Of a stretch of DNA of 44,867 nucleotides, positions 122 through 14,201 are shown piece by piece. Under the pieces are notes generated by a model. That model had not been told where the DNA came from. It worked only from the letters and a program-made list of their open reading frames with translations, and did no database searches. Every line of letters begins with the position of its first letter. The stretch's first letter is position 1. Source of the stretch: a virus. A program made the translations under genes and the position numbers. The stretch is taken from the IMG/VR virus record IMGVR_UViG_3300005608_000008, positions 1 through 44,867 of that record. One strand, written 5' to 3'.

Positions 122-2287
122 TTAGTACACAGGTTGGACATCTATAGAGTCTCGAATGTAGACCCATTTGCGATTATTGCGACTCCCTCTTCTCTTTTTT
201 TCATATCCCAAGTCTTTTAAAATTGATGCAATTTGCATCTGATCAAATCTAGTTTGTCTCTCTACAGGTTTTTCAATTGCTTCGGTAAGTACGATCTCTG
301 TTGTTAACTCACGATTGTAATTTTGTGGACTTTCGATAAAACTTTCTACGACAGTTTTCCAAGGAGATTCAGTTACATATTGTTCATTTTCAATGTTAAG
401 AACTCTCTGATATTTATCACTTAATAAAAGTGATTCTTGGTTTTCCCAACTATTAAAACAAGCACACCATATTTGATCCCTAATTGTTATTAATGTTCCT
501 ATATCTATGGGGTCTAATTGTGTTTTAGTGACAGGAATTACAAAGAATCTTCTGTTTCCAGTATCGTCTTGAAGCAAGTTATGCATACGGTTTGAAGTGC
601 CTACAATAATAGATCTTCTTTTAAATCTTTCTGCAACTTTTCCATAAGGAACTCTATAAAGATCAGTTGATTGTGAAAGAAAAGATTTTATATCTCCAGC
701 CATTCTTTTAGAAGTGATTGATTCTAATTCCGACCATTCGTGAATCCATGCGGATGAAAGTACTTGATAGGAATCTTTGCTATGAATATCACGCAAGCTA
801 TCGCTAAAAAATTCCCCTGCGAGTGTTGCCCAGAAGGTACTCTTACGACAGCCTTGCTCCCCGATTAGGATACAAGCATTGTCCCATTTACAACCTGGTT
901 TCATTGCTCTGTAAACCGCTGCTATGAGAGTCTTTTTAAGCATCTCATCATAGATTGTTGGTTCATCATATCTTTCATCTTCGGGTCTTAAGAATCTAGT
1001 AGCTAATCTATCTATATCAATAGGAGTTGTTTTACGTCCTAATCCTTTTAAATAATCTGTTACTGGATTATATGGTCTTTCTTTTGCAATCTCTACAATG
1101 CAATCCATAGCAAGTTCCTTGCTAATCTTTTTACCTTGCTGTGCAACTTTTAAATACCACCGCTCTAAGGAATTAGCCCCTTCACAAATAACAGCATCCT
1201 TGCCAGTTCCTAATTGTATCTGTTGTGTATATTCGTTATATCTAAAAGATTCCATACTAGTGCGTGAAGTAGATCTTAATTGCTGTAAAAATTCATTTGC
1301 TTGCATTGGTTGCAAACGATCAACAGTCACAACTATTTCTTTAGATGGATCTACAGGATCGACAAATTTTACAACTCTTGGTATTTCAAATCCATGTTCT
1401 TTTGCGAAATACCAGAAAGATCCAGCATTGATTTGATGCCCTCCAGATTTAGCAACTTGTCTAATATTTTTCCATTGAGGAGAATGATTTTGCATTAGAA
1501 AAATTGCATCTTCTTCTGATCTATTTATCTCTTGACAGGCTTTAATTAAGCCCCAGAGAATATTTCGATACATATCATATGTATTTGTATTAGGAACTCT
1601 TGGTGGGATGCAATATAAAGCTTTTTGTATATCTTCAAAAGGTAAAGGATCAAACTGAGTAAAAGTTATAGCTTGTTTTACTTTTTCTGCCTGTTTTTTT
1701 GTAGGCAAACAATCTTCTATTTCTTTTACTGTATATTTTTTATCTGAGCTATGGATAATCCTAGTCATAGCATTAGGAGTGCCATCATCATTCATATGAT
1801 ATGTGCCAGGCAATCTCATCACTCTAGAAGGATTTTTTAAGGCTCTATCAGCATCTGCATGATCTAATAATCTCTCTTGTAAAACTCTCCAAGTTTTTGC
1901 ATCTATACCTTTTTTTAAGATCCAGTAATTATGAATCGACTTACCTCCCGTATCAATCTGAAGAGAAGGCTCTACTAACCCTAATTCTTTCCAAGCATTG
2001 ATCTGTTCAAATTTGTCCCGATCATCCCACTCTACAAAGACTGCCCTACAATTAGTAATTTCTTTATCAGTATCACCTCCATCATTAATAACTATGTAAA
2101 CACCACGACCTTCATTTTGACATTTTTGAATCCAGCTAGAATCCGCATGATATTTTTTACCATGATCACGTTCTTTAAGGTGATGACCTTTTGGAAAGAA
2201 AGATCTTAACCTTACAGATTTAGGATCTTTGCCTAAGTATTTGCAGAAAGACCGCCATTCGTTGCGATCTAAAACAACGTCCAACAT
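122..2287 (-). CDS. Primase-helicase: RepB/AEP-type primase, PriCT-like linker and VirE-type ATPase
   Basis: A 721-residue replication protein expected to prime DNA synthesis and unwind the fork. The N-terminal third carries archaeo-eukaryotic primase-like signatures: FVEWDD near residue 84, GGKSIHNYW near 114 and RVMRLPGTYH near 155. A helical PriCT-2-like linker follows at about 220-290. The C-terminal half matches virulence-associated protein E ATPases, with Walker A GEQGCRKST at about 473-481, an acidic strand segment (HEWSELE) and the NRRFFVIPV block near 580. It is last in the minus replication group, after the helicase and VRR-NUC genes, with a 30-base gap from the latter. No clear ribosome site precedes the ATG. 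The domain calls are firm; the exact biochemical role is inferred from the families. Confidence 0.85.
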   Translation of the reverse strand: MLDVVLDRNEWRSFCKYLGKDPKSVRLRSFFPKGHHLKERDHGKKYHADSSWIQKCQNEGRGVYIVINDGGDTDKEITNCRAVFVEWDDRDKFEQINAWKELGLVEPSLQIDTGGKSIHNYWILKKGIDAKTWRVLQERLLDHADADRALKNPSRVMRLPGTYHMNDDGTPNAMTRIIHSSDKKYTVKEIEDCLPTKKQAEKVKQAITFTQFDPLPFEDIQKALYCIPPRVPNTNTYDMYRNILWGLIKACQEINRSEEDAIFLMQNHSPQWKNIRQVAKSGGHQINAGSFWYFAKEHGFEIPRVVKFVDPVDPSKEIVVTVDRLQPMQANEFLQQLRSTSRTSMESFRYNEYTQQIQLGTGKDAVICEGANSLERWYLKVAQQGKKISKELAMDCIVEIAKERPYNPVTDYLKGLGRKTTPIDIDRLATRFLRPEDERYDEPTIYDEMLKKTLIAAVYRAMKPGCKWDNACILIGEQGCRKSTFWATLAGEFFSDSLRDIHSKDSYQVLSSAWIHEWSELESITSKRMAGDIKSFLSQSTDLYRVPYGKVAERFKRRSIIVGTSNRMHNLLQDDTGNRRFFVIPVTKTQLDPIDIGTLITIRDQIWCACFNSWENQESLLLSDKYQRVLNIENEQYVTESPWKTVVESFIESPQNYNRELTTEIVLTEAIEKPVERQTRFDQMQIASILKDLGYEKKRRGSRNNRKWVYIRDSIDVQPVY

Positions 2288-4660: not shown

Positions 4661-5500
4661 ATGTACAAACCAGTAGTCATGACAAATGACGACTATCACA
4701 AACACAAGAATTACTCCAGCACAAATGTTAGAGCTTTTCTTGATAACGATGAAAAAGGATTGGCTAGTTTAGTTCCGAGTACTAAACCGCCATCCAAAGC
4801 AATGATTGAAGGTACTGCTGTTCATGCATATATAGGAGAACCTCATTTATTTAAAAGAGATTTTGTTTGCAAACCTGTGGATCTATCTCTTAGAACAAAA
4901 GAAGGAAAACAATGGGCTGCTGATAACGCAGATAAGATTGTTCTTGATACTGAGTTCTACAACAACTTACCTCATATCGCTGAGTCTTTTTATAGGAGTC
5001 CAGCTAAAGATATATATTTAAAAGATGGTTTAGTTGAAAGAAGTTTTTTCTGGGAAGATGATTACGGAGTTTCTTGCAAGTGCCGACCTGATTGGATTAG
5101 TAAAGACTTTCGTAGAATCATCGATCTTAAAACAACAGCCGATGCACATCCAAGAAAATTTAAAAGATCAATCGTAGATTACCGTTACGATATCCAAGCT
5201 GCTTTTTATATGAGAGGTGTAGAAGTTTGTACTAAGGTTACTCCAGAAGTTTTTTATTTTATAGCAATAGAAAAGGTAGCACCTTTCTGTGTTGCTGTTT
5301 ATCAGATTACTGATGATTGGTTATTAATAGGCCAAAAAGATGTTCATGAAGCTTTATACCGAATAGATCGTGTTATTCAGTCAGGAGAACCGCAAGGCTA
5401 TACCCCAGAAATTATGGCACTATCTCCTCCAGAGTGGATAAATAGTCCATCAAAGAAAAAGGTTACACCTTTAAATTATCATGAAATCCCTTTGTTCTAA
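4661..5500 (+). CDS. RecE-like exonuclease, PD-(D/E)XK superfamily
   Basis: A 279-residue protein resembling the exodeoxyribonuclease VIII (RecE) C-terminal nuclease domain that phages pair with RecT. It would resect duplex ends to expose single strands for annealing. Visible core: an N-terminal helix motif IEGTAVHAYIG (residues ~49-59), SCKCRPDWI with the catalytic Asp (~139-147), RRIIDLKTT with the Asp-x-Lys pair (~151-159), and YDIQAAFYMRG with the conserved Gln (~175-185). It is the first gene of the plus operon, 15 bases after the predicted transcription start, and its stop overlaps the next start as TAATG. RecT lies two genes downstream, which supports the call. Confidence 0.82.
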   Translation: MYKPVVMTNDDYHKHKNYSSTNVRAFLDNDEKGLASLVPSTKPPSKAMIEGTAVHAYIGEPHLFKRDFVCKPVDLSLRTKEGKQWAADNADKIVLDTEFYNNLPHIAESFYRSPAKDIYLKDGLVERSFFWEDDYGVSCKCRPDWISKDFRRIIDLKTTADAHPRKFKRSIVDYRYDIQAAFYMRGVEVCTKVTPEVFYFIAIEKVAPFCVAVYQITDDWLLIGQKDVHEALYRIDRVIQSGEPQGYTPEIMALSPPEWINSPSKKKVTPLNYHEIPLF

Positions 5501-5655
5501 TGTCTTTTGAAATTAAACGCATACAGCAAAGACTGGACGAATTAGAAAAAGATTCTAAGGGCATCGAGATTATGAGGCTTGTTTTACTTGAAGTAAACGA
5601 AACCTTAATTGACATCAAACAAAGATTATTACAATTGGAGATCAATCAAAAATGA
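5500..5655 (+). CDS. Small coiled-coil protein between RecE-like and RecT genes
   Basis: A 51-residue protein (MSFEIKRIQQ... ending LEINQK) with heptad-like Leu/Ile spacing and many charges, so probably one long helix. Its start overlaps the RecE-like stop (TAATG) and its stop overlaps the RecT start (ATGA). This translational coupling on both sides is the main evidence that it is real. Function unknown; a bridging or oligomerising role between the nuclease and annealing proteins is only a guess. Confidence 0.7.
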   Translation: MSFEIKRIQQRLDELEKDSKGIEIMRLVLLEVNETLIDIKQRLLQLEINQK

Positions 5656-6311
5656 CATCAGAAATCACACCAACAACAAATGACGAGTCTTCTATCTATT
5701 TACAGGATTCTGCATTTGAAATGGCACAAAGACAAGCTAGAAGTTTAGCTGCTTCTACTTTAGTTCCAACAGAATATAGAGGAGAACAAGGTTTAGGTAA
5801 TTGCATTGTTGCATTAGACATTGCAAAACGTATGAACATAAGTCCTCTTACTGTTATGCAAAATCTAATCATTGTACATAACAGACCATCTTGGAGTAGT
5901 GCTTGGATCATTGCACAAATACAAGGTTGTGGACGCTATGAAAATTTTAATTATGAATTATCTGGCGAAGGAGAAAAGATGAAATGTTATTGCACTGCTA
6001 TTAGAGTTAGTGATGGTAAAAACATTAAAGGATCTACTGTATCTATTGCAATGGCAAAAGCAGAAGGCTGGACTAGAAATAGTAAATGGAGAACAATGCC
6101 AGAGCAAATGCTTAAATATCGAGCAGCAACATTCTTTGGCAGACAATACATACCTGATCTACTATTAGGTGTACAAACAAGTGAAGAAGTTGTGGACATC
6201 ACACCTCTTGATGTAACTCCTGTAGAGATTAATCCAAGTCTCAAGAAAGCAAAAGCAAGTGCTGAAGGTGCTAAAAACATTACGGAGAAACAAGATGACT
6301 TCGACTTCTAA
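5652..6311 (+). CDS. recT: RecT-family single-strand annealing protein
   Basis: A 219-residue protein of the RecT family, which anneals complementary single strands during phage recombination. The typical block LKYRAATFFGRQYIPDLL followed by a GVQTSEEV segment lies at about 153-180; the N-terminal half has the usual pattern around QGLGNCIVALDIAKRM and SWSSAWIIAQ. The C-terminus is Lys-rich and ends KQDDFDF, an acidic-aromatic tip like that of bacterial SSB. It is coupled by overlap to the small coiled-coil gene before it and to the HTH gene after it. Slightly shorter than many RecT proteins, but the conserved core is complete. Confidence 0.85.
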   Translation: MTSEITPTTNDESSIYLQDSAFEMAQRQARSLAASTLVPTEYRGEQGLGNCIVALDIAKRMNISPLTVMQNLIIVHNRPSWSSAWIIAQIQGCGRYENFNYELSGEGEKMKCYCTAIRVSDGKNIKGSTVSIAMAKAEGWTRNSKWRTMPEQMLKYRAATFFGRQYIPDLLLGVQTSEEVVDITPLDVTPVEINPSLKKAKASAEGAKNITEKQDDFDF

Positions 6312-6498
6312 TAATCCTGTTTACCTTACATCTAATGAACTCGCCGAAAGATGGCGAGTTTCTATTAGTTCCGTTATCAGATGGAGAGAACAGGGTAAAC
6401 CCCCTGCTTTCTATAAAATCAACGGCAACATCCTTTATAAGCTGGCCGATATAGAGGATTTAGAGAAGGCCAATCGTAAATCTACTACCTCTAACTAA
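6295..6498 (+). CDS. Small helix-turn-helix DNA-binding protein, excisionase/MerR-like
   Basis: 67 residues from the ATG at 6295, which has GGAGAAA upstream and overlaps the RecT end. The sequence YLTSNELAERWRVSISSVIRWREQGKPP followed by a hydrophobic wing and a further helix is the classic HTH_17 (excisionase/MerR-type) winged helix. The frame is open farther upstream, to 6259, but that part reads the RecT tail in another frame and has no ribosome site. No integrase is present, so it more likely regulates transcription or acts in replication than in excision. Its stop overlaps the next start (TAATG). Confidence 0.75.
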   Translation: MTSTSNNPVYLTSNELAERWRVSISSVIRWREQGKPPAFYKINGNILYKLADIEDLEKANRKSTTSN

Positions 6499-6875
6499 TG
6501 ACTTTTAAGATCAAATTAGCAGTCTTTTCTAATACAGATGAAGACCATAAAAGAGTTTATGGTGACAACTATGACTCAAGTAAAAACTATCCTAAATACT
6601 CAGGACAAATGCAAATCCCTGAGTCTGAGTTACCTAAATTTATCGAATACTTACAAAAATGTAAGCCTGATCACAATGAATACTTAGGTGAACCAGCAAT
6701 ACCTGTTAAAGTTAATGGATGGTTATCTACATCTAATAAAGGTGTAAAGTATCAAGGTCTTACTTTCGAACCTGTTTTTAAAAAACAGAAAGAAATTGAA
6801 GAAGGAACTAATCAAGCAGATCCTAAAGACTTCAAACTTACGGAGAAAAAGCAAGACGAGGAGTTTCCTTTTTAA
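6498..6875 (+). CDS. Putative single-stranded DNA-binding protein with SSB-like tip
   Basis: A 125-residue protein with beta-rich composition (segments such as EPAIPVKVNGWLSTS and VKYQGLTFEPVF), a charged flexible tail and a terminal DEEFPF. That end mimics the DDDIPF tip by which bacterial SSB recruits repair and replication enzymes. Phage proteins of this general type sit beside recT and coat single strands; here RecT is two genes upstream. I see no textbook OB-fold motif, so the SSB call rests on tip, length, fold-like pattern and context. Confidence 0.6.
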   Translation: MTFKIKLAVFSNTDEDHKRVYGDNYDSSKNYPKYSGQMQIPESELPKFIEYLQKCKPDHNEYLGEPAIPVKVNGWLSTSNKGVKYQGLTFEPVFKKQKEIEEGTNQADPKDFKLTEKKQDEEFPF

Positions 6876-6927: not shown

Positions 6928-7338
6928 ATGAAAATTGATTTAACAGAACGAGAATGGAGAAACATCAAAATAGGTTTACTTCAATCAATTTCTAATGCTG
7001 ATAAATGTTCTAAATGTAATTTTGACGATAATCCTTTAATAAAAGAACTTTTAAAATTACATGACAAAATTTCTGTAGCAATGGAAAACGAAAAAAACAA
7101 ACCAGAAAGCGACCCTTTTGACCCTTATAAAAGAAAATATTATGCAAAATTAGGTTACTATCAGCAATTAACTGCTGCCGATATGATGGGTTTAAAATCT
7201 GAGAGTTCTTTAGTTAGTTATAGAAAAAAAGGTGTATTAAAAGAAAATATACATTGGATAAAAACTGTTGGTAGGGGGATTTCATATAATCCAGAAAAAT
7301 GTAAACTAGCCATAAGAAAAGCAAAATTAGGTTACTAA
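6928..7338 (+). CDS. Putative DNA-binding protein, unknown function
   Basis: 136 residues. The N-terminal half has a small cysteine pair (CSKC, residues ~29-32) and helical, charged sequence. The C-terminal half reads like a winged helix: LTAADMMGLKSESSLVSYRK, then a strand-like HWIKTVGRGISYN and a final basic helix. This resembles the helix-turn-helix of small terminase or excisionase-type proteins but I do not recognise a named family. It follows the SSB-like gene after a 52-base spacer, and its stop overlaps the next small start (TAATG). A regulatory or replication role is possible. Confidence 0.6.
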   Translation: MKIDLTEREWRNIKIGLLQSISNADKCSKCNFDDNPLIKELLKLHDKISVAMENEKNKPESDPFDPYKRKYYAKLGYYQQLTAADMMGLKSESSLVSYRKKGVLKENIHWIKTVGRGISYNPEKCKLAIRKAKLGY

Positions 7339-7418
7339 TGACAAAAGTTGAAAAAATTGCAGCAGCAAAAAAACGTATTGCTGAACTAGAACTTCTTATT
7401 AAATTATGGACAAAATGA
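7338..7418 (+). CDS. 26-residue leucine-rich helical micro-protein
   Basis: Encodes MTKVEKIAAAKKRIAELELL and six more residues. It starts inside the previous gene's stop (TAATG) and ends inside the next gene's start region (ATGA at 7415-7418). Apolar residues at heptad spacing predict a short amphipathic helix. The perfect overlap at both ends argues for translation. It may exist mainly to couple translation of its neighbours, or be a small dimerisation peptide. No known family recognised. Confidence 0.45.
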   Translation: MTKVEKIAAAKKRIAELELLIKLWTK

Positions 7419-8344
7419 CAAAATGGGAATTAATTCTGTCTAAATTAGAATTACCATCAACAAGGATGTTGTTTTCACAACAAACAAACATTTTAAAGAT
7501 TGATGAAAATGAAGTTGTTATTGCAGTTTCTCAGAATTGGTCACCAATGATAAAAAGCAGAAAGGATCATATTGAAAATGCTGTAAAAAAAGTTTTTGGT
7601 GATAATGTAGCTACAAAATTAATAACTAAAGAAAAAAATATTAAAAATGTTATTCCTTATGTATTACCAAAACAACCAAAACAACTTAAAAAAATTAATG
7701 AATATAATATAACTCCAATTCCTACTAAATATAATGGAGTACAATTTAAGTCAAGATTAGAGGCTAGATGGGCTGTATTTTTTGATTATTTAAATATACA
7801 TTGGGAATATGAACCAGAAGGATTTAAGTTAGATAATAAAAATAATGCTGACTCATATTATTGCCCTGATTTTTTAATTCGTACACCACAAGACGAAGAT
7901 ATGTGGATAGAAATAAAGCCACATAATATAAAGCAAAGCGATAAATTCGATAAATTTAAAAAATTTTCAAAATTTAAACGAGTTTATTTATTATCTGGAC
8001 AACCAAGTGATGTCCTAAAAAATACTTCTTTCTGTCCTCGATGTGGATCTTTTGAAGTAGATACTATTTTAAAACGCATGGTGATAAATGAAGAGAATTA
8101 CCAAATAATGCAAGACGTATATTGTTGGCCTTGTGATACGGAAACTCCATCTGGAGGTGGACATTCTCCTGATTTTCAAAATATTTGTAAAATTCCTATA
8201 ACACCTCATAAAGGTTTTCTGCAAATAGAAAAAGAAGATTATTTAAATTTTGCATTTACCGTTTCTGATGCTTGTGACTTTGCAAGAACATTTGACTTTT
8301 ATCCACGTAAAGGAAAAAGAATAAGGAGAGAATTTTGTGACTGA
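7406..8344 (+). CDS. DnaX/DnaA-N-like domain fused to PD-(D/E)XK nuclease and zinc ribbon
   Basis: A 312-residue protein of at least three parts. Residues ~1-75 (WELILSKLELPSTRMLFSQQ near 7-26, then alternating strands and helices) resemble DnaA domain I and, more closely, the C-terminal domain of cyanobacterial DnaX (tau) as I recall it. Residues ~108-200 are a nuclease core: FKSRLEARWAVFFDYL with the helix Glu, YCPDFLI with Asp, WIEIKPH with Glu-x-Lys. Cysteine pairs CPRC (~210-213) and CWPC (~240-243) form a likely zinc ribbon. The start may be ATG 7406 or 7415; the latter overlaps the micro-protein stop. The expected role is DNA cleavage, perhaps at or near the host replisome (inference). 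Confidence 0.7.
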   Translation: MDKMTKWELILSKLELPSTRMLFSQQTNILKIDENEVVIAVSQNWSPMIKSRKDHIENAVKKVFGDNVATKLITKEKNIKNVIPYVLPKQPKQLKKINEYNITPIPTKYNGVQFKSRLEARWAVFFDYLNIHWEYEPEGFKLDNKNNADSYYCPDFLIRTPQDEDMWIEIKPHNIKQSDKFDKFKKFSKFKRVYLLSGQPSDVLKNTSFCPRCGSFEVDTILKRMVINEENYQIMQDVYCWPCDTETPSGGGHSPDFQNICKIPITPHKGFLQIEKEDYLNFAFTVSDACDFARTFDFYPRKGKRIRREFCD

Positions 8345-8366
8345 TGCTAAATTAAGTTAAAATAGA

Positions 8367-10017: not shown

Positions 10018-10272
10018 ATGGAAGAACAACAAGAAAGCAAGATCGAAACTATTGTAAAAGTTTCAATTCTTATTTGGAGTGCTACGCTTCTGACATTAAG
10101 CTATATGGAACTTCCTAGTGGCAAAAAAATTGTAGATTTTGATCCAACTTTTATTGCTTCAATTTTTTCGGCATCTACAGCATCCCTGGGCTTAAGTATT
10201 GGCAAAAAAAGTAATAATGGCAATACTCCCAAAATTGTGGATAATAAAGATAACAAAAACGTAACACAATGA
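10018..10272 (+). CDS. Holin-like two-segment membrane protein
   Basis: 84 residues with two hydrophobic stretches (about 13-30, VSILIWSATLLTLSYMEL; about 43-63, FIASIFSASTASLGLSIG) and hydrophilic ends, the C-terminal tail being Asn/Lys-rich. This matches small phage holins in size and topology. It overlaps the next gene by four bases (ATGA), beginning a plus-strand group of exported proteins. The 46-base gap to the divergent minus gene is AT-rich with TATA-like hexamers but no firm promoter. No endolysin gene is adjacent, so the holin call is moderate. Confidence 0.5.
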   Translation: MEEQQESKIETIVKVSILIWSATLLTLSYMELPSGKKIVDFDPTFIASIFSASTASLGLSIGKKSNNGNTPKIVDNKDNKNVTQ

Positions 10273-10748
10273 AAAAATTTTTACCGCTTTTACTTTTACT
10301 GCCAACTGCAAGTTTTGCAGATATCACTTCATCAATCAGTTCAAGTATCCAACTAGAAGTTGCTGCACCCGGTACTACAGCAGATCGAATTGGAAATTCT
10401 TACTCTGTTTCTGGTACAGGTGTTACTACTACTGACGGAACAACGGCAGGGTCAGTGGGAGGTCTAGGAGCAGTGACTTCGGGGGTCAATGCTTATACAG
10501 CAATTACTGCATCACAATTAACTGATGGCGAAAGTTTCACATATAACGTTTCTCACACTACTGGGGACACGATTGAAACATCTTTGACGGTAGGCGAGGT
10601 TAGCCCATTTGGAGATTTAACAAGTACTTCTGGAGGTACAGTAGGGGATTTAGATGGTACTGTTGACAATCATGTTATTTCAGTCACCGCTGGAGGGGCT
10701 GGTACTACAGCAACAGCTTCTTATGTAACTTCTGTCACTTTGGATTAA
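10269..10748 (+). CDS. Exported Thr/Ser/Gly-rich beta protein
   Basis: 159 residues with a clear Sec signal peptide: MKK, a leucine run, then cleavage after TASFA (before DITSS). The mature part is almost free of Lys and Cys and rich in Thr, Ser, Gly and Val, like a beta-sandwich or surface protein. I recall similar exported proteins in marine cyanophages but no function. It is coupled to the holin-like gene (ATGA) and followed nine bases later by a second exported protein of similar style. It may modify the host envelope or be a secreted accessory protein. Confidence 0.65.
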   Translation: MKKFLPLLLLLPTASFADITSSISSSIQLEVAAPGTTADRIGNSYSVSGTGVTTTDGTTAGSVGGLGAVTSGVNAYTAITASQLTDGESFTYNVSHTTGDTIETSLTVGEVSPFGDLTSTSGGTVGDLDGTVDNHVISVTAGGAGTTATASYVTSVTLD

Positions 10749-10757
10749 AAATGAGCT

Positions 10758-11180
10758 ATGCGGAAGCTTTTATTACTGTTTTTTATATATGCTTTACCAG
10801 CTAACGCAAATATTGTCCCTAATTTTACAACCGGGACTATGTCGAGTACCACAAATACACAGACAACAATTACAGAATCAATTACTAGTAAAGATTATAA
10901 AACAGGATATGAATATACCGTTACAGGTGTTGGTATTAGTGCAGATGGCGATATCTCGCCAGATGCAACTAACGTTACAGGAACAGTAGGAGGTCAAAGT
11001 TATACATGGAAAGGAGCAGATATGACAACAAAACCAGACTGGACACTAACAGATCCTACGTCAGGAGATGCCTTTCAATTCACAGAAAGTTATTCTGCGC
11101 CCGGTCTTCAGAACGTCACGACTATAAATCGCACCATAGAAACAGAATCGGTAGTAACCTCTACATCTGTCTTTCAATAG
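10758..11180 (+). CDS. Exported Thr-rich protein
   Basis: 140 residues starting MRKLLLLFFIYALPANA, a Sec signal peptide with predicted cleavage before NIVPN. The mature chain is Thr/Ser-rich with repeated strand-forming stretches (SYTWKGADMTTKPDWTLTD) and ends TSTSVFQ. It resembles the preceding gene product in composition and probably shares its role, possibly as a diverged relative. Function unknown. The frame carrying the next protein continues upstream through this gene, overlapping it (see the following entry). Confidence 0.65.
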   Translation: MRKLLLLFFIYALPANANIVPNFTTGTMSSTTNTQTTITESITSKDYKTGYEYTVTGVGISADGDISPDATNVTGTVGGQSYTWKGADMTTKPDWTLTDPTSGDAFQFTESYSAPGLQNVTTINRTIETESVVTSTSVFQ

Positions 11181-11185
11181 CTCTA

Positions 11186-11812
11186 ATGCCTACAGGTGTT
11201 TTAGCTAATTCTGTAAGTCAATCAAATAGTGGAAGTGTAACTAATCAAAACTGGAATGTTAATAATGGAGGATTTCATACCAATCAATATGGAGGCGGTG
11301 TTGTTTGCCAAGGAGCAATGATGACCATAACTCCGTTCACTACATTCAATACAAATTATCGCAAGCCATATCGAGATTTTTATTACACCCCGGTGTACGA
11401 TGAGACAGATATTGTTGGTGACTTTGATGATGACGGTAACCCTATAGGAGACGGAACGCCCGATAATCCTGGAGATATTCTTTTCTATCAACAAAACTAT
11501 TCTGGTACTAATAAAGATAGTTTTGCACTTGGAACAGGTATCACATTAAATTTTAGTATTCCGTTAGATCGTCAATATACAAAACAATGCAAAGAAGCAG
11601 CGCAAGTACAAAACGACTTAAACAAACAAAAGCTTAAGAACCTTGAGTTGGATTGGCATATGGCACGTTTACGTCATTGCGGAGAGAAAAAAATTGCCGG
11701 GATAGAATTTACAGCCGACTCTCCTTACTACAACTTATGTAAAGATATAAAAATCGTACCTAAAAAAGGTCAAGTTATTCCGCATCAACATTCTTTGACT
11801 TCCGAGAAGTAA
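11186..11812 (+). CDS. Exported Asn-rich protein, start uncertain
   Basis: From the ATG at 11186 the product is 208 residues: an Asn/Ser/Gly-rich part, a section with DDDGNPIGDGTPDNPGDILF, a helical stretch with Gln/Lys, and a cysteine-containing C-terminus. The reading frame is open to 11006, and just before this ATG it reads SNLYICLSIALMPTGVLANS, a convincing signal peptide with cleavage after VLA. No ATG, GTG or TTG lies where such a peptide should start, so the true start may be non-standard or reached by a -1 frameshift from the previous gene. I recall relatives in marine cyanophages. The end overlaps the convergent gene by 38 bases. Confidence 0.6.
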   Translation: MPTGVLANSVSQSNSGSVTNQNWNVNNGGFHTNQYGGGVVCQGAMMTITPFTTFNTNYRKPYRDFYYTPVYDETDIVGDFDDDGNPIGDGTPDNPGDILFYQQNYSGTNKDSFALGTGITLNFSIPLDRQYTKQCKEAAQVQNDLNKQKLKNLELDWHMARLRHCGEKKIAGIEFTADSPYYNLCKDIKIVPKKGQVIPHQHSLTSEK

Positions 11813-12428
11813 CTTTTTTTATAGCAGTCTTGATAAGGTTTTTGAGTAAATTAGCTATTATGGGACTTGTAGCAGCCGTAATTGCAATAAGGCTAGTGCT
11901 GATAATAAGAGGAGGAGATGGAATCCAACGGTCAATAAATCGACTTTCTTCGAATAAGGTAATACAGGTTTTGCCATCTTCTGAAATTTTATGACCTACA
12001 ACCTTTTCTAACCTATCTTCTGATGCAAACATACCTACTCTTAAATCTTTGTCACCTGGGCATTTTATAAAAAACTCTTCTTCTTTTTTTTCTGGTAACT
12101 TAGGTGTTTCTTGGTTGTATTGAACTTGTTCTTCGTTATTAGTTTTTTTCTCTTCTTTTTTAGCTTCAGTAATTGTTATTCTCGTCCTGTCATACAATAA
12201 TGGTTTAAATGTTGGCATTGAACCACTAGGACAAGAAATAACTGTACCTGTAGGATCATCTTCATATAATGCAGTATTTTTAGGCGAAGCATCTCTGTGA
12301 TACCTTACACAACCAGGTAATACAATAGACGGTAGTGGTATGTTTAAAACTTGGTATGGATTATGAGTTGGTATATTAATTTTTGGTATTTCTACCTTTG
12401 GTATATATATCTCAGGTATCTTTATCAT
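11775..12428 (-). CDS. Membrane-anchored Pro-rich protein, unknown function
   Basis: 217 residues. The N-terminus is a repeated Ile-Pro pattern (IPEIYIPKVEIPKINIP), then a conserved-looking segment LPGCVRYHRDASPKNTALYEDDPTG. A Glu/Lys-rich linker (~90-120) and a small globular region follow, with a hydrophobic membrane segment near 172-192 and a basic end. I recall close relatives in marine cyanophages, again uncharacterised. It converges with the exported-protein group (38-base overlap) and overlaps the upstream gene by 17 bases on the same strand. An envelope or lysis role is a guess. Confidence 0.65.
   Translation of the reverse strand: MIKIPEIYIPKVEIPKINIPTHNPYQVLNIPLPSIVLPGCVRYHRDASPKNTALYEDDPTGTVISCPSGSMPTFKPLLYDRTRITITEAKKEEKKTNNEEQVQYNQETPKLPEKKEEEFFIKCPGDKDLRVGMFASEDRLEKVVGHKISEDGKTCITLFEESRFIDRWIPSPPLIISTSLIAITAATSPIIANLLKNLIKTAIKKVTSRKSKNVDAE
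11798..11820 (+). terminator. Weak Rho-independent terminator for the exported-protein group
   Basis: ACTTC-CGA-GAAGT hairpin (11798-11810) followed after three bases by seven Ts. It overlaps the stop codon of the preceding gene. The stem is only five base pairs, so strength is doubtful, but position and orientation fit. Confidence 0.4.
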
Positions 12429-13613: not shown

Positions 13614-14201
13614 TTATGTTTCATTATTTTTATCTCCTATTATTACTTGACGCATACCTGAGAAAGGAGTAAACCATCCTGTCAGTATATATTTATCATT
13701 TTTTAAGGGAGGATTTCCCCTGTGTATATGTGTCCAAGATCCCGGCCAAAGTAAAGCTGTATTTCTTTTTGGTTTCACTCTTTCTCTTTGATATAAAAAC
13801 TCTGTTTCTCCACCTTCTTCTACATCATTTAAATATATCATCCACACAACAGCCCTAGAAGTTTCGTAATACGATAAATTCTCACAATGCCATTCATGAT
13901 ATCCTTGTGAAGGAGAAGTTTTTTGTAATAAAGTACATGAACTTGTCCATTTCGGAAGTGAACTTAAATAAGGATATTTCTTTATATAACTAATTAAAGT
14001 TTTATGAATTAATTGTTCATTAATCCATCTTGCTAAATCAGGAAAAAAAGGTTCAAGAACTACTTGTAAATCTTGTCTGTAATGTTCAGTATTAAAATTA
14101 TTATCAGTATAGTTTTTACTGCTATCAGCAATTTTTATAAGTTTATCAATATGTTCATCCTCTAAGACATTCTCAAACCGACAAAGAAAATTTTCCAACA
14201 T
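13614..14201 (-). CDS. 2-oxoglutarate/Fe(II) oxygenase, prolyl 4-hydroxylase-like
   Basis: 195 residues of the 2OG-Fe(II) oxygenase superfamily, which hydroxylates proteins or small molecules using 2-oxoglutarate and O2. The iron site reads WHCEN with His105 and Glu107 (an H-x-E variant of the usual H-x-D), followed by YLNDVEEGGETEFL, then WTHIHRGNPP with the distal His (~160) and KYILTGWF supplying the cosubstrate-binding basic residue. I recall the same W-H-x-E-N form in marine cyanophage oxygenases. It sits between small exported genes and the fibre region, so a structural protein might be its target (inference). Confidence 0.8.
   Translation of the reverse strand: MLENFLCRFENVLEDEHIDKLIKIADSSKNYTDNNFNTEHYRQDLQVVLEPFFPDLARWINEQLIHKTLISYIKKYPYLSSLPKWTSSCTLLQKTSPSQGYHEWHCENLSYYETSRAVVWMIYLNDVEEGGETEFLYQRERVKPKRNTALLWPGSWTHIHRGNPPLKNDKYILTGWFTPFSGMRQVIIGDKNNET

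Follow-up and report, generated by a model that had tools for sequence, protein, structure and literature searches.

A DnaX-type domain fused to a predicted T7-endonuclease-I-like nuclease in a lambda-like siphovirus suggests steering of the cutter to the host replication machinery

Results

Genomic setting

The DNA analysed here, called the window (positions 1 to 44,867 of IMG/VR record IMGVR_UViG_3300005608_000008), belongs to a lambda-like siphovirus of Prochlorococcus whose capsid protein is nearest to those of Synechococcus siphoviruses S-CBS3 and S-CBS1 (about 43.5%). The gene under study neighbours a recombination module (RecT, exonuclease VIII) and lies between two conserved ORFs that border an accessory slot:

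122..2287, minus strand: VapE-type primase-helicase (Pfam/PHROG profile matches)
4661..5500, plus strand: exonuclease VIII-like protein, DUF3799 (Pfam/PHROG profile matches)
5652..6311, plus strand: RecT-like annealing protein (Pfam/PHROG profile matches)
6498..6875, plus strand: left slot border, conserved 125-aa ORF, presumed SSB-like by position and acidic tail only (no Pfam/PHROG match)
6928..7338, plus strand: cassette partner ORF, 136 aa, of no family (86% identical copy elsewhere in L029)
6930..8348, plus strand: accessory cassette (replaced as a block in phage L008; blastn junctions 6929 and 8349)
7338..7418, plus strand: 26-aa mini-ORF, its end overlapping the nuclease start (from sequence; related peptide in L001 and L008)
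7406..8344, plus strand: DnaX-head/PD-(D/E)XK zinc-ribbon nuclease (ORF; full-length relative in contig L001)
8367..8783, plus strand: right slot border, 138-aa ORF (conserved in relatives)

A helicase and an HTH protein are also encoded. None of the window proteins scanned was recognised as a DNA polymerase, though one could lie outside the record, which may not be a complete genome. The VapE primase-helicase gene stands beside a nuclease of a different type, VRR-NUC (2318-2815), which gives the phage a further candidate enzyme for junction processing. Small conserved ORFs at 10018-12428 include matches to phrog_848 and phrog_570 (unknown function), and a 2OG-Fe(II) oxygenase (phrog_61, E=4e-47; 13614-14201, minus strand) adjoins tail fibre assembly genes.

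The mini-ORF is likely to be translationally coupled to the nuclease, as judged from their overlap. A tiny coiled-coil-like peptide of this kind (IAAAKKRIAELE...) recurs around the slot, at 7338-7418 in the window, near 2062-2145 in L001 and near 5160-5255 in L008.

Architecture of the fusion protein

Positions 7406-8344 form a single ORF of 312 aa with the following parts:

7406..7636, plus strand: head, DnaX-type alpha/beta domain (alpha-alpha-beta-beta-alpha-alpha-beta), residues 1-77 (NF011510, identity to Prochlorococcus DnaX, AlphaFold2, Foldseek)
7637..7702, plus strand: linker, residues 78-99, predicted disordered (AlphaFold2 pLDDT <50 at 78-94 and 96-99)
7688..8299, plus strand: patch nearly unchanged relative to L001 within diverged surroundings (97% nucleotide identity; 5 of 189 identical-residue codons differ)
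7703..8299, plus strand: body, PD-(D/E)XK nuclease related to T7 endonuclease I, residues 100-298 (phrog_21138, 1m0d profile match, AlphaFold2)
7760..7762, plus strand: predicted catalytic Glu119 in SRLEARW (kept in alignments; aligns with FRSGLEDK of T7 endonuclease I)
7868..7870, plus strand: predicted catalytic Asp155 in PDF (alignments with relatives and T7 endonuclease I)
7910..7918, plus strand: predicted catalytic Glu169-Ile-Lys171, ExK (alignments with relatives and T7 endonuclease I)
8033..8134, plus strand: zinc ribbon, Cys210/213 and Cys240/243, CPRC...CWPCD (CxxC...CxxC kept in relatives of the zinc-ribbon subfamily)

AlphaFold2, supplied with a 36-row alignment, gave a full-length model (pLDDT 86, pTM 0.72) in which head and body are ordered and the linker is disordered. 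The same architecture is present in the independent contig L001, from another dataset, whose full-length relative covers residues 1-308 with 80% identity in the best segment. The combination of DnaX-type head, disordered linker and zinc-ribbon PD-(D/E)XK nuclease is thus confirmed as genuine.

The head is a DnaX-type domain

The first-pass annotation had seen a DnaX/DnaA-N-like domain at the N-terminus, and profile searches agree: residues 5-99 match the DnaX gamma/tau model NF011510/PRK14948 (profile positions 447-541 of 640) with E=7e-19. The STICHEL DnaA_N-like family PF23007 (DnaA_N-like_STI) matches the protein at E=1.6e-4; with the head alone the score is 26.4 bits at a curated cut-off of 27, which a standalone Prochlorococcus head ORF exceeds (31.6 bits). 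The nearest sequences are Prochlorococcus DnaX proteins. One of them (L003) is 75% identical over residues 6-68 and three others (L004-L006) are 59-66% identical. These four, 564-570 aa long and 59-75% identical to the head, came from a genome scan that also retrieved a standalone ORF of 81 aa. Of 400 sampled genomes of the Prochlorococcus family, 357 contain a head match, almost invariably a single one located in a frame the size of DnaX. A segment very similar to PSTRMLLSQQ had been expected in marine cyanobacterial DnaX, correctly: LELPSTRMLLSQQ is near-invariant across picocyanobacterial DnaX. Residues invariant in DnaX are retained in the phage head, among other places at W7, in the S18/M21/L22/Q25/Q26 helix, at W45 and in IENAVKK.

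Prediction for the head alone (AlphaFold2, pLDDT 89) yielded the secondary structure H-H-E-E-H-H-E. Foldseek placed DnaA domain I (4tps; probability 1.00, TM 0.65, rmsd 2.8) and DciA (8a3v, 7ykm; probability 0.91-0.97) among the top matches, and with the full model it also matched chain E of the E. coli replicase complex 5fkv (probability 0.97). Despite these high probabilities the E-values are weak (0.014 at best, for 4tps). The expected structural match to DnaA domain I was therefore obtained as one to a small common fold, and it is at this level that the predicted assignment to the DnaA-domain-I/DciA type holds. Querying PDB sequences with the head yielded nothing above noise, which leaves fold comparison as the informative approach. 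The literature searched contains no description of the function of this DnaX domain in cyanobacteria.

Origin of the head and extent of capture

To place the two phage heads among their cyanobacterial counterparts, protein and DNA trees were compared. Both group them with high-light Prochlorococcus, across a 100/100 branch from the other sequences (we infer the clade name). In the protein tree the two phage heads form a weakly supported pair (80/48), and the DNA tree groups the L001 head with one Prochlorococcus clade (81/93) and leaves the window head basal. Derivation of the head from DnaX of a high-light Prochlorococcus lineage is supported by these trees. Both phage heads are on long branches, indicating that capture was not recent. 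Between them dS is about 1.0 and omega 0.30, which shows that the head has been maintained by purifying selection.

In complete picocyanobacterial DnaX, the alpha/beta domain lies about 120-180 residues before the end and is followed by a variable linker and a conserved terminal peptide. This FFNGEIIDLDE-type peptide ends every complete picocyanobacterial DnaX examined and is absent from the phage protein, as are the AAA+ ATPase and clamp-loader domains from its 312 residues. The first-pass annotation had described a host clamp-loader tail attached to a nuclease. A DnaX-derived domain has indeed been joined to one; the piece taken is an internal alpha/beta domain, not the tail.

The distinction bears on the possible partner. 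E. coli tau contacts DnaB through domain IV and the alpha subunit of the polymerase through domain V (PMC11470591), and mutations at the end of domain V (S617, L635/D636) or at the alpha C-terminus disrupt alpha-tau coupling (PMC11869525). The cyanobacterial terminal peptide may be the counterpart of this alpha-binding end, and it is the best candidate for a polymerase-binding tail. If so, the phage left out the polymerase-binding element. Since the peptide is missing and the E. coli alpha contact sits at the end of domain V, Pol III alpha is not the first partner one would suspect.

The body belongs to a widespread phage nuclease family

The nuclease core matches phrog_21138 (E=5.9e-28), and a profile of ten body sequences matches T7 endonuclease I (1m0d) with E=2.8e-5; no curated endonuclease I family model in Pfam or NCBIfam gave a match. 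E119, D155, E169 and K171 make up the full E/PD/ExK catalytic set of the T7 endonuclease I type. Both features first noticed in the body withstood comparison: E119, P154-D155 and E169-x-K171 of the PD-(D/E)XK core are kept across relatives, and the four cysteines of the zinc ribbon (210, 213, 240, 243) are conserved in the zinc-ribbon subfamily. The body is accordingly best described as a T7-endonuclease-I-like nuclease of predicted activity.

In isolated phages, relatives of the body are standalone proteins of about 155-245 aa encoded beside primases, helicases and annealing proteins, some of them annotated as Holliday junction resolvase. None of 36 viral relatives inspected carries a DnaX head; all start at or near the body. 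Two of the nearest headless relatives (L123, L124; 56% identical) come from related marine phages that have genes in common with the downstream cluster of the window at 10018-12428. Because these nearest headless copies occur in phages sharing the downstream genes, the headless form is probably ancestral and the fusion derived. The first-pass annotation had taken the fusion for a kind of system not known to have been described. The nuclease itself is not new and belongs to a common phage family, usually headless and related to T7 endonuclease I.

An accessory slot with exchangeable cargo

Phage L008 is 99.0-99.6% identical to the window on both sides of the cassette and has two unrelated ORFs in place of positions 6930-8348. 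The slot is empty in 19 of the 24 phages in which both borders were measured, the other five having cargo of four kinds. The nuclease gene is thus accessory. Cargo differs in L008, L039, L048, L037 and L041; judged by eye, L039 has a possible nuclease of 155 aa and L048 a ParB-like protein of 284 aa.

Comparison of the window with L001 revealed an abrupt change in divergence within the fusion gene. DNA identity is 97% in the body (residues 95-298), 70% in the head and 43% in residues 81-94, and the flanking proteins are 39-73% identical in amino acids. The body dS is 0.05, as against 1.0 for the head, and the borders of the conserved patch coincide with the linker and the C-terminal end. This pattern indicates recent exchange of the nuclease portion between lineages, each of which retained its own head.

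Distribution of the fusion

Scans of IMG/VR with head, body and full-length queries, including a seven-sequence head alignment, detected only L001 as a further head-bearing viral protein; pattern scans of this kind reach mainly close relatives. Among 50,697 records of isolated phages the head was found only as one chance match (E=3). No fusion that might represent a prophage copy was seen in 400 picocyanobacterial genomes, one of which has a body-like match (47%, in a 231-aa frame). RecT relatives are present in 14 of the 400, all larger than high-light Prochlorococcus genomes.

Discussion

Proposed function

Whether the head tethers a T7-endonuclease-I-like branch cutter to forks run by the host replisome is, by our estimate, close to an even question, and we lean slightly towards it. 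The DnaA-I-like alpha/beta domain of Prochlorococcus DnaX would serve as a host address tag, joined to the cutter through a flexible linker in a protein made beside RecT and exonuclease VIII. It would occupy the site at which the domain of DnaX itself normally sits on some component of the replisome (DnaB, or another protein contacted by this fold), thereby holding the nuclease at forks driven by host Pol III, where it would cut branched DNA. Nuclease activity, docking, partner and target are all predicted, whereas the architecture of the protein and the origin of its head are firmly established. In favour of tethering are the DnaX sequence and high-light Prochlorococcus origin of the head, its predicted fold of a type that serves in replisome contacts, the selective constraint on it and its retained DnaX-invariant residues, together with the T7 endonuclease I profile match and complete active site of the body and the neighbouring recombination genes. 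With no DNA polymerase gene identified in the window, forks driven by host Pol III would include the phage's own, and the nuclease might act either in recombination-linked processing of phage DNA or on forks of the host.

Precedents exist for the separate elements. T7 endonuclease I has been described as a cutter of host replication forks that feeds phage synthesis (PMC3485210), the SPP1 helicase gp40 contacts DnaX, among others, to recruit the host replisome (PMC6316719), and PhiNM1 Gp16, a phage nuclease that depends on a host factor, brings host replication to a stall (PMC12817073). A more specific reading, that the captured domain docks the branch cutter on the host replisome, breaks host forks and frees nucleotides and polymerase for the phage, we regard as rather doubtful. 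Against docking in general, only two fusions are known (window and L001) and the gene is missing from the 99%-identical phage L008. Headless nucleases are the rule, so docking is not required for basic nuclease function. The missing DnaX terminal peptide and the weak Foldseek E-values count against it as well.

A side observation touches on the partner. The Prochlorococcus single-cell genome AG-402-K10 (L007) encodes, besides a normal DnaX, the standalone 81-aa DnaX-head ORF (4980-5225), and 412 bp from it lies an ORF consisting of the DnaB C-terminal helicase domain only (5638-6528). This proximity is a hint, no more, that DnaB could be the partner of the head.

Alternative explanations

The head might instead be a generic helper that dimerises the nuclease or holds DNA by a KH-like fold and does not dock on any host protein. 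Its fold also matches DciA, a KH-like DNA-binding domain (PMC9865707), and the phage heads have a basic pI of 9.3-10.0. Much the same charge is found in the heads of host DnaX, however, so that it is not a phage adaptation; in addition, many DnaX-invariant residues are retained and relatives function without any head. We consider such a role unlikely. Retention of the domain as a close copy of the host's own would also suit a decoy, a dominant-negative DnaX domain that blocks assembly of the host replisome and to which the nuclease is secondary, and some phages do inhibit the clamp loader (N4 gp8, going by a citation in PMC12817073). Yet the nuclease active site is intact, it is the body and not the head that spread almost unchanged between lineages, and the phage itself appears to need host polymerase, all of which makes a decoy quite improbable.

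The near-identity of the body across diverged phages, the swapping of the cassette as a block and the usual emptiness of the slot would be expected of a mobile, homing-like or cargo nuclease gene spread by recombination, to which the head was fused by chance and contributes little. We hold this to be just as improbable as a decoy: the head has been under purifying selection over a large divergence, two lineages have kept the fusion, the gene lies between others and interrupts none, and its active site belongs to the T7 endonuclease I type and not to a classic homing family. As to the idea that host dnaX and a phage gene were joined only in assembly, the contig is metagenomic and no isolate among the 50,697 records carries the fusion; but L001, from another dataset, has the same architecture with a head dS of 1.0, and start, linker and frame are intact. 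These observations rule a chimera out, and its probability is next to nil.

Comparison with known systems

Set against these alternatives, tethering of the branch cutter to replisome-driven forks is the reading we prefer, and the protein can be compared with known ones in its light. With cyanobacterial DnaX it shares 59-75% head identity, the invariant core LELPSTRML..QQ and the predicted DnaA-domain-I-like fold, but it lacks the AAA+ domains and the FFNG-type peptide, and its head is N-terminal to a nuclease. The PD-(D/E)XK core has E, D and ExK residues matching those of T7 endonuclease I (gp3), to which the phage protein adds a zinc ribbon, a C-terminal helical part and the DnaX head, its own activity being predicted. 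Zinc-ribbon nucleases of the phrog_21138 type (about 200 aa) align with the body throughout and have similar recombination/primase neighbourhoods, whereas those inspected carry no DnaX head. SPP1 gp40 is likewise a phage replication protein engaging the clamp-loader DnaX of the host (PMC6316719); it binds DnaX, while the window protein is itself part DnaX, and a nuclease. PhiNM1 Gp16 also is a phage nuclease that exploits a host DNA-metabolism protein to block host replication, but it is an HNH nickase binding RecA and is not reported as a captured host domain (PMC12817073).

Significance

Phages recruit or block host replisomes with proteins of their own. The literature searched contains no case of a nuclease fused to a clamp-loader domain captured from the host. 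The fusion of a DnaX domain to a predicted DNA cutter suggests that the cutter is steered to the replication machinery of the host, and Prochlorococcus is the ocean's most abundant photosynthetic organism. If docking holds, the phage would show which DnaX surface suffices for replisome recruitment in cyanobacteria, and the protein would be a compact case of a phage nuclease aimed by mimicry of a host protein.
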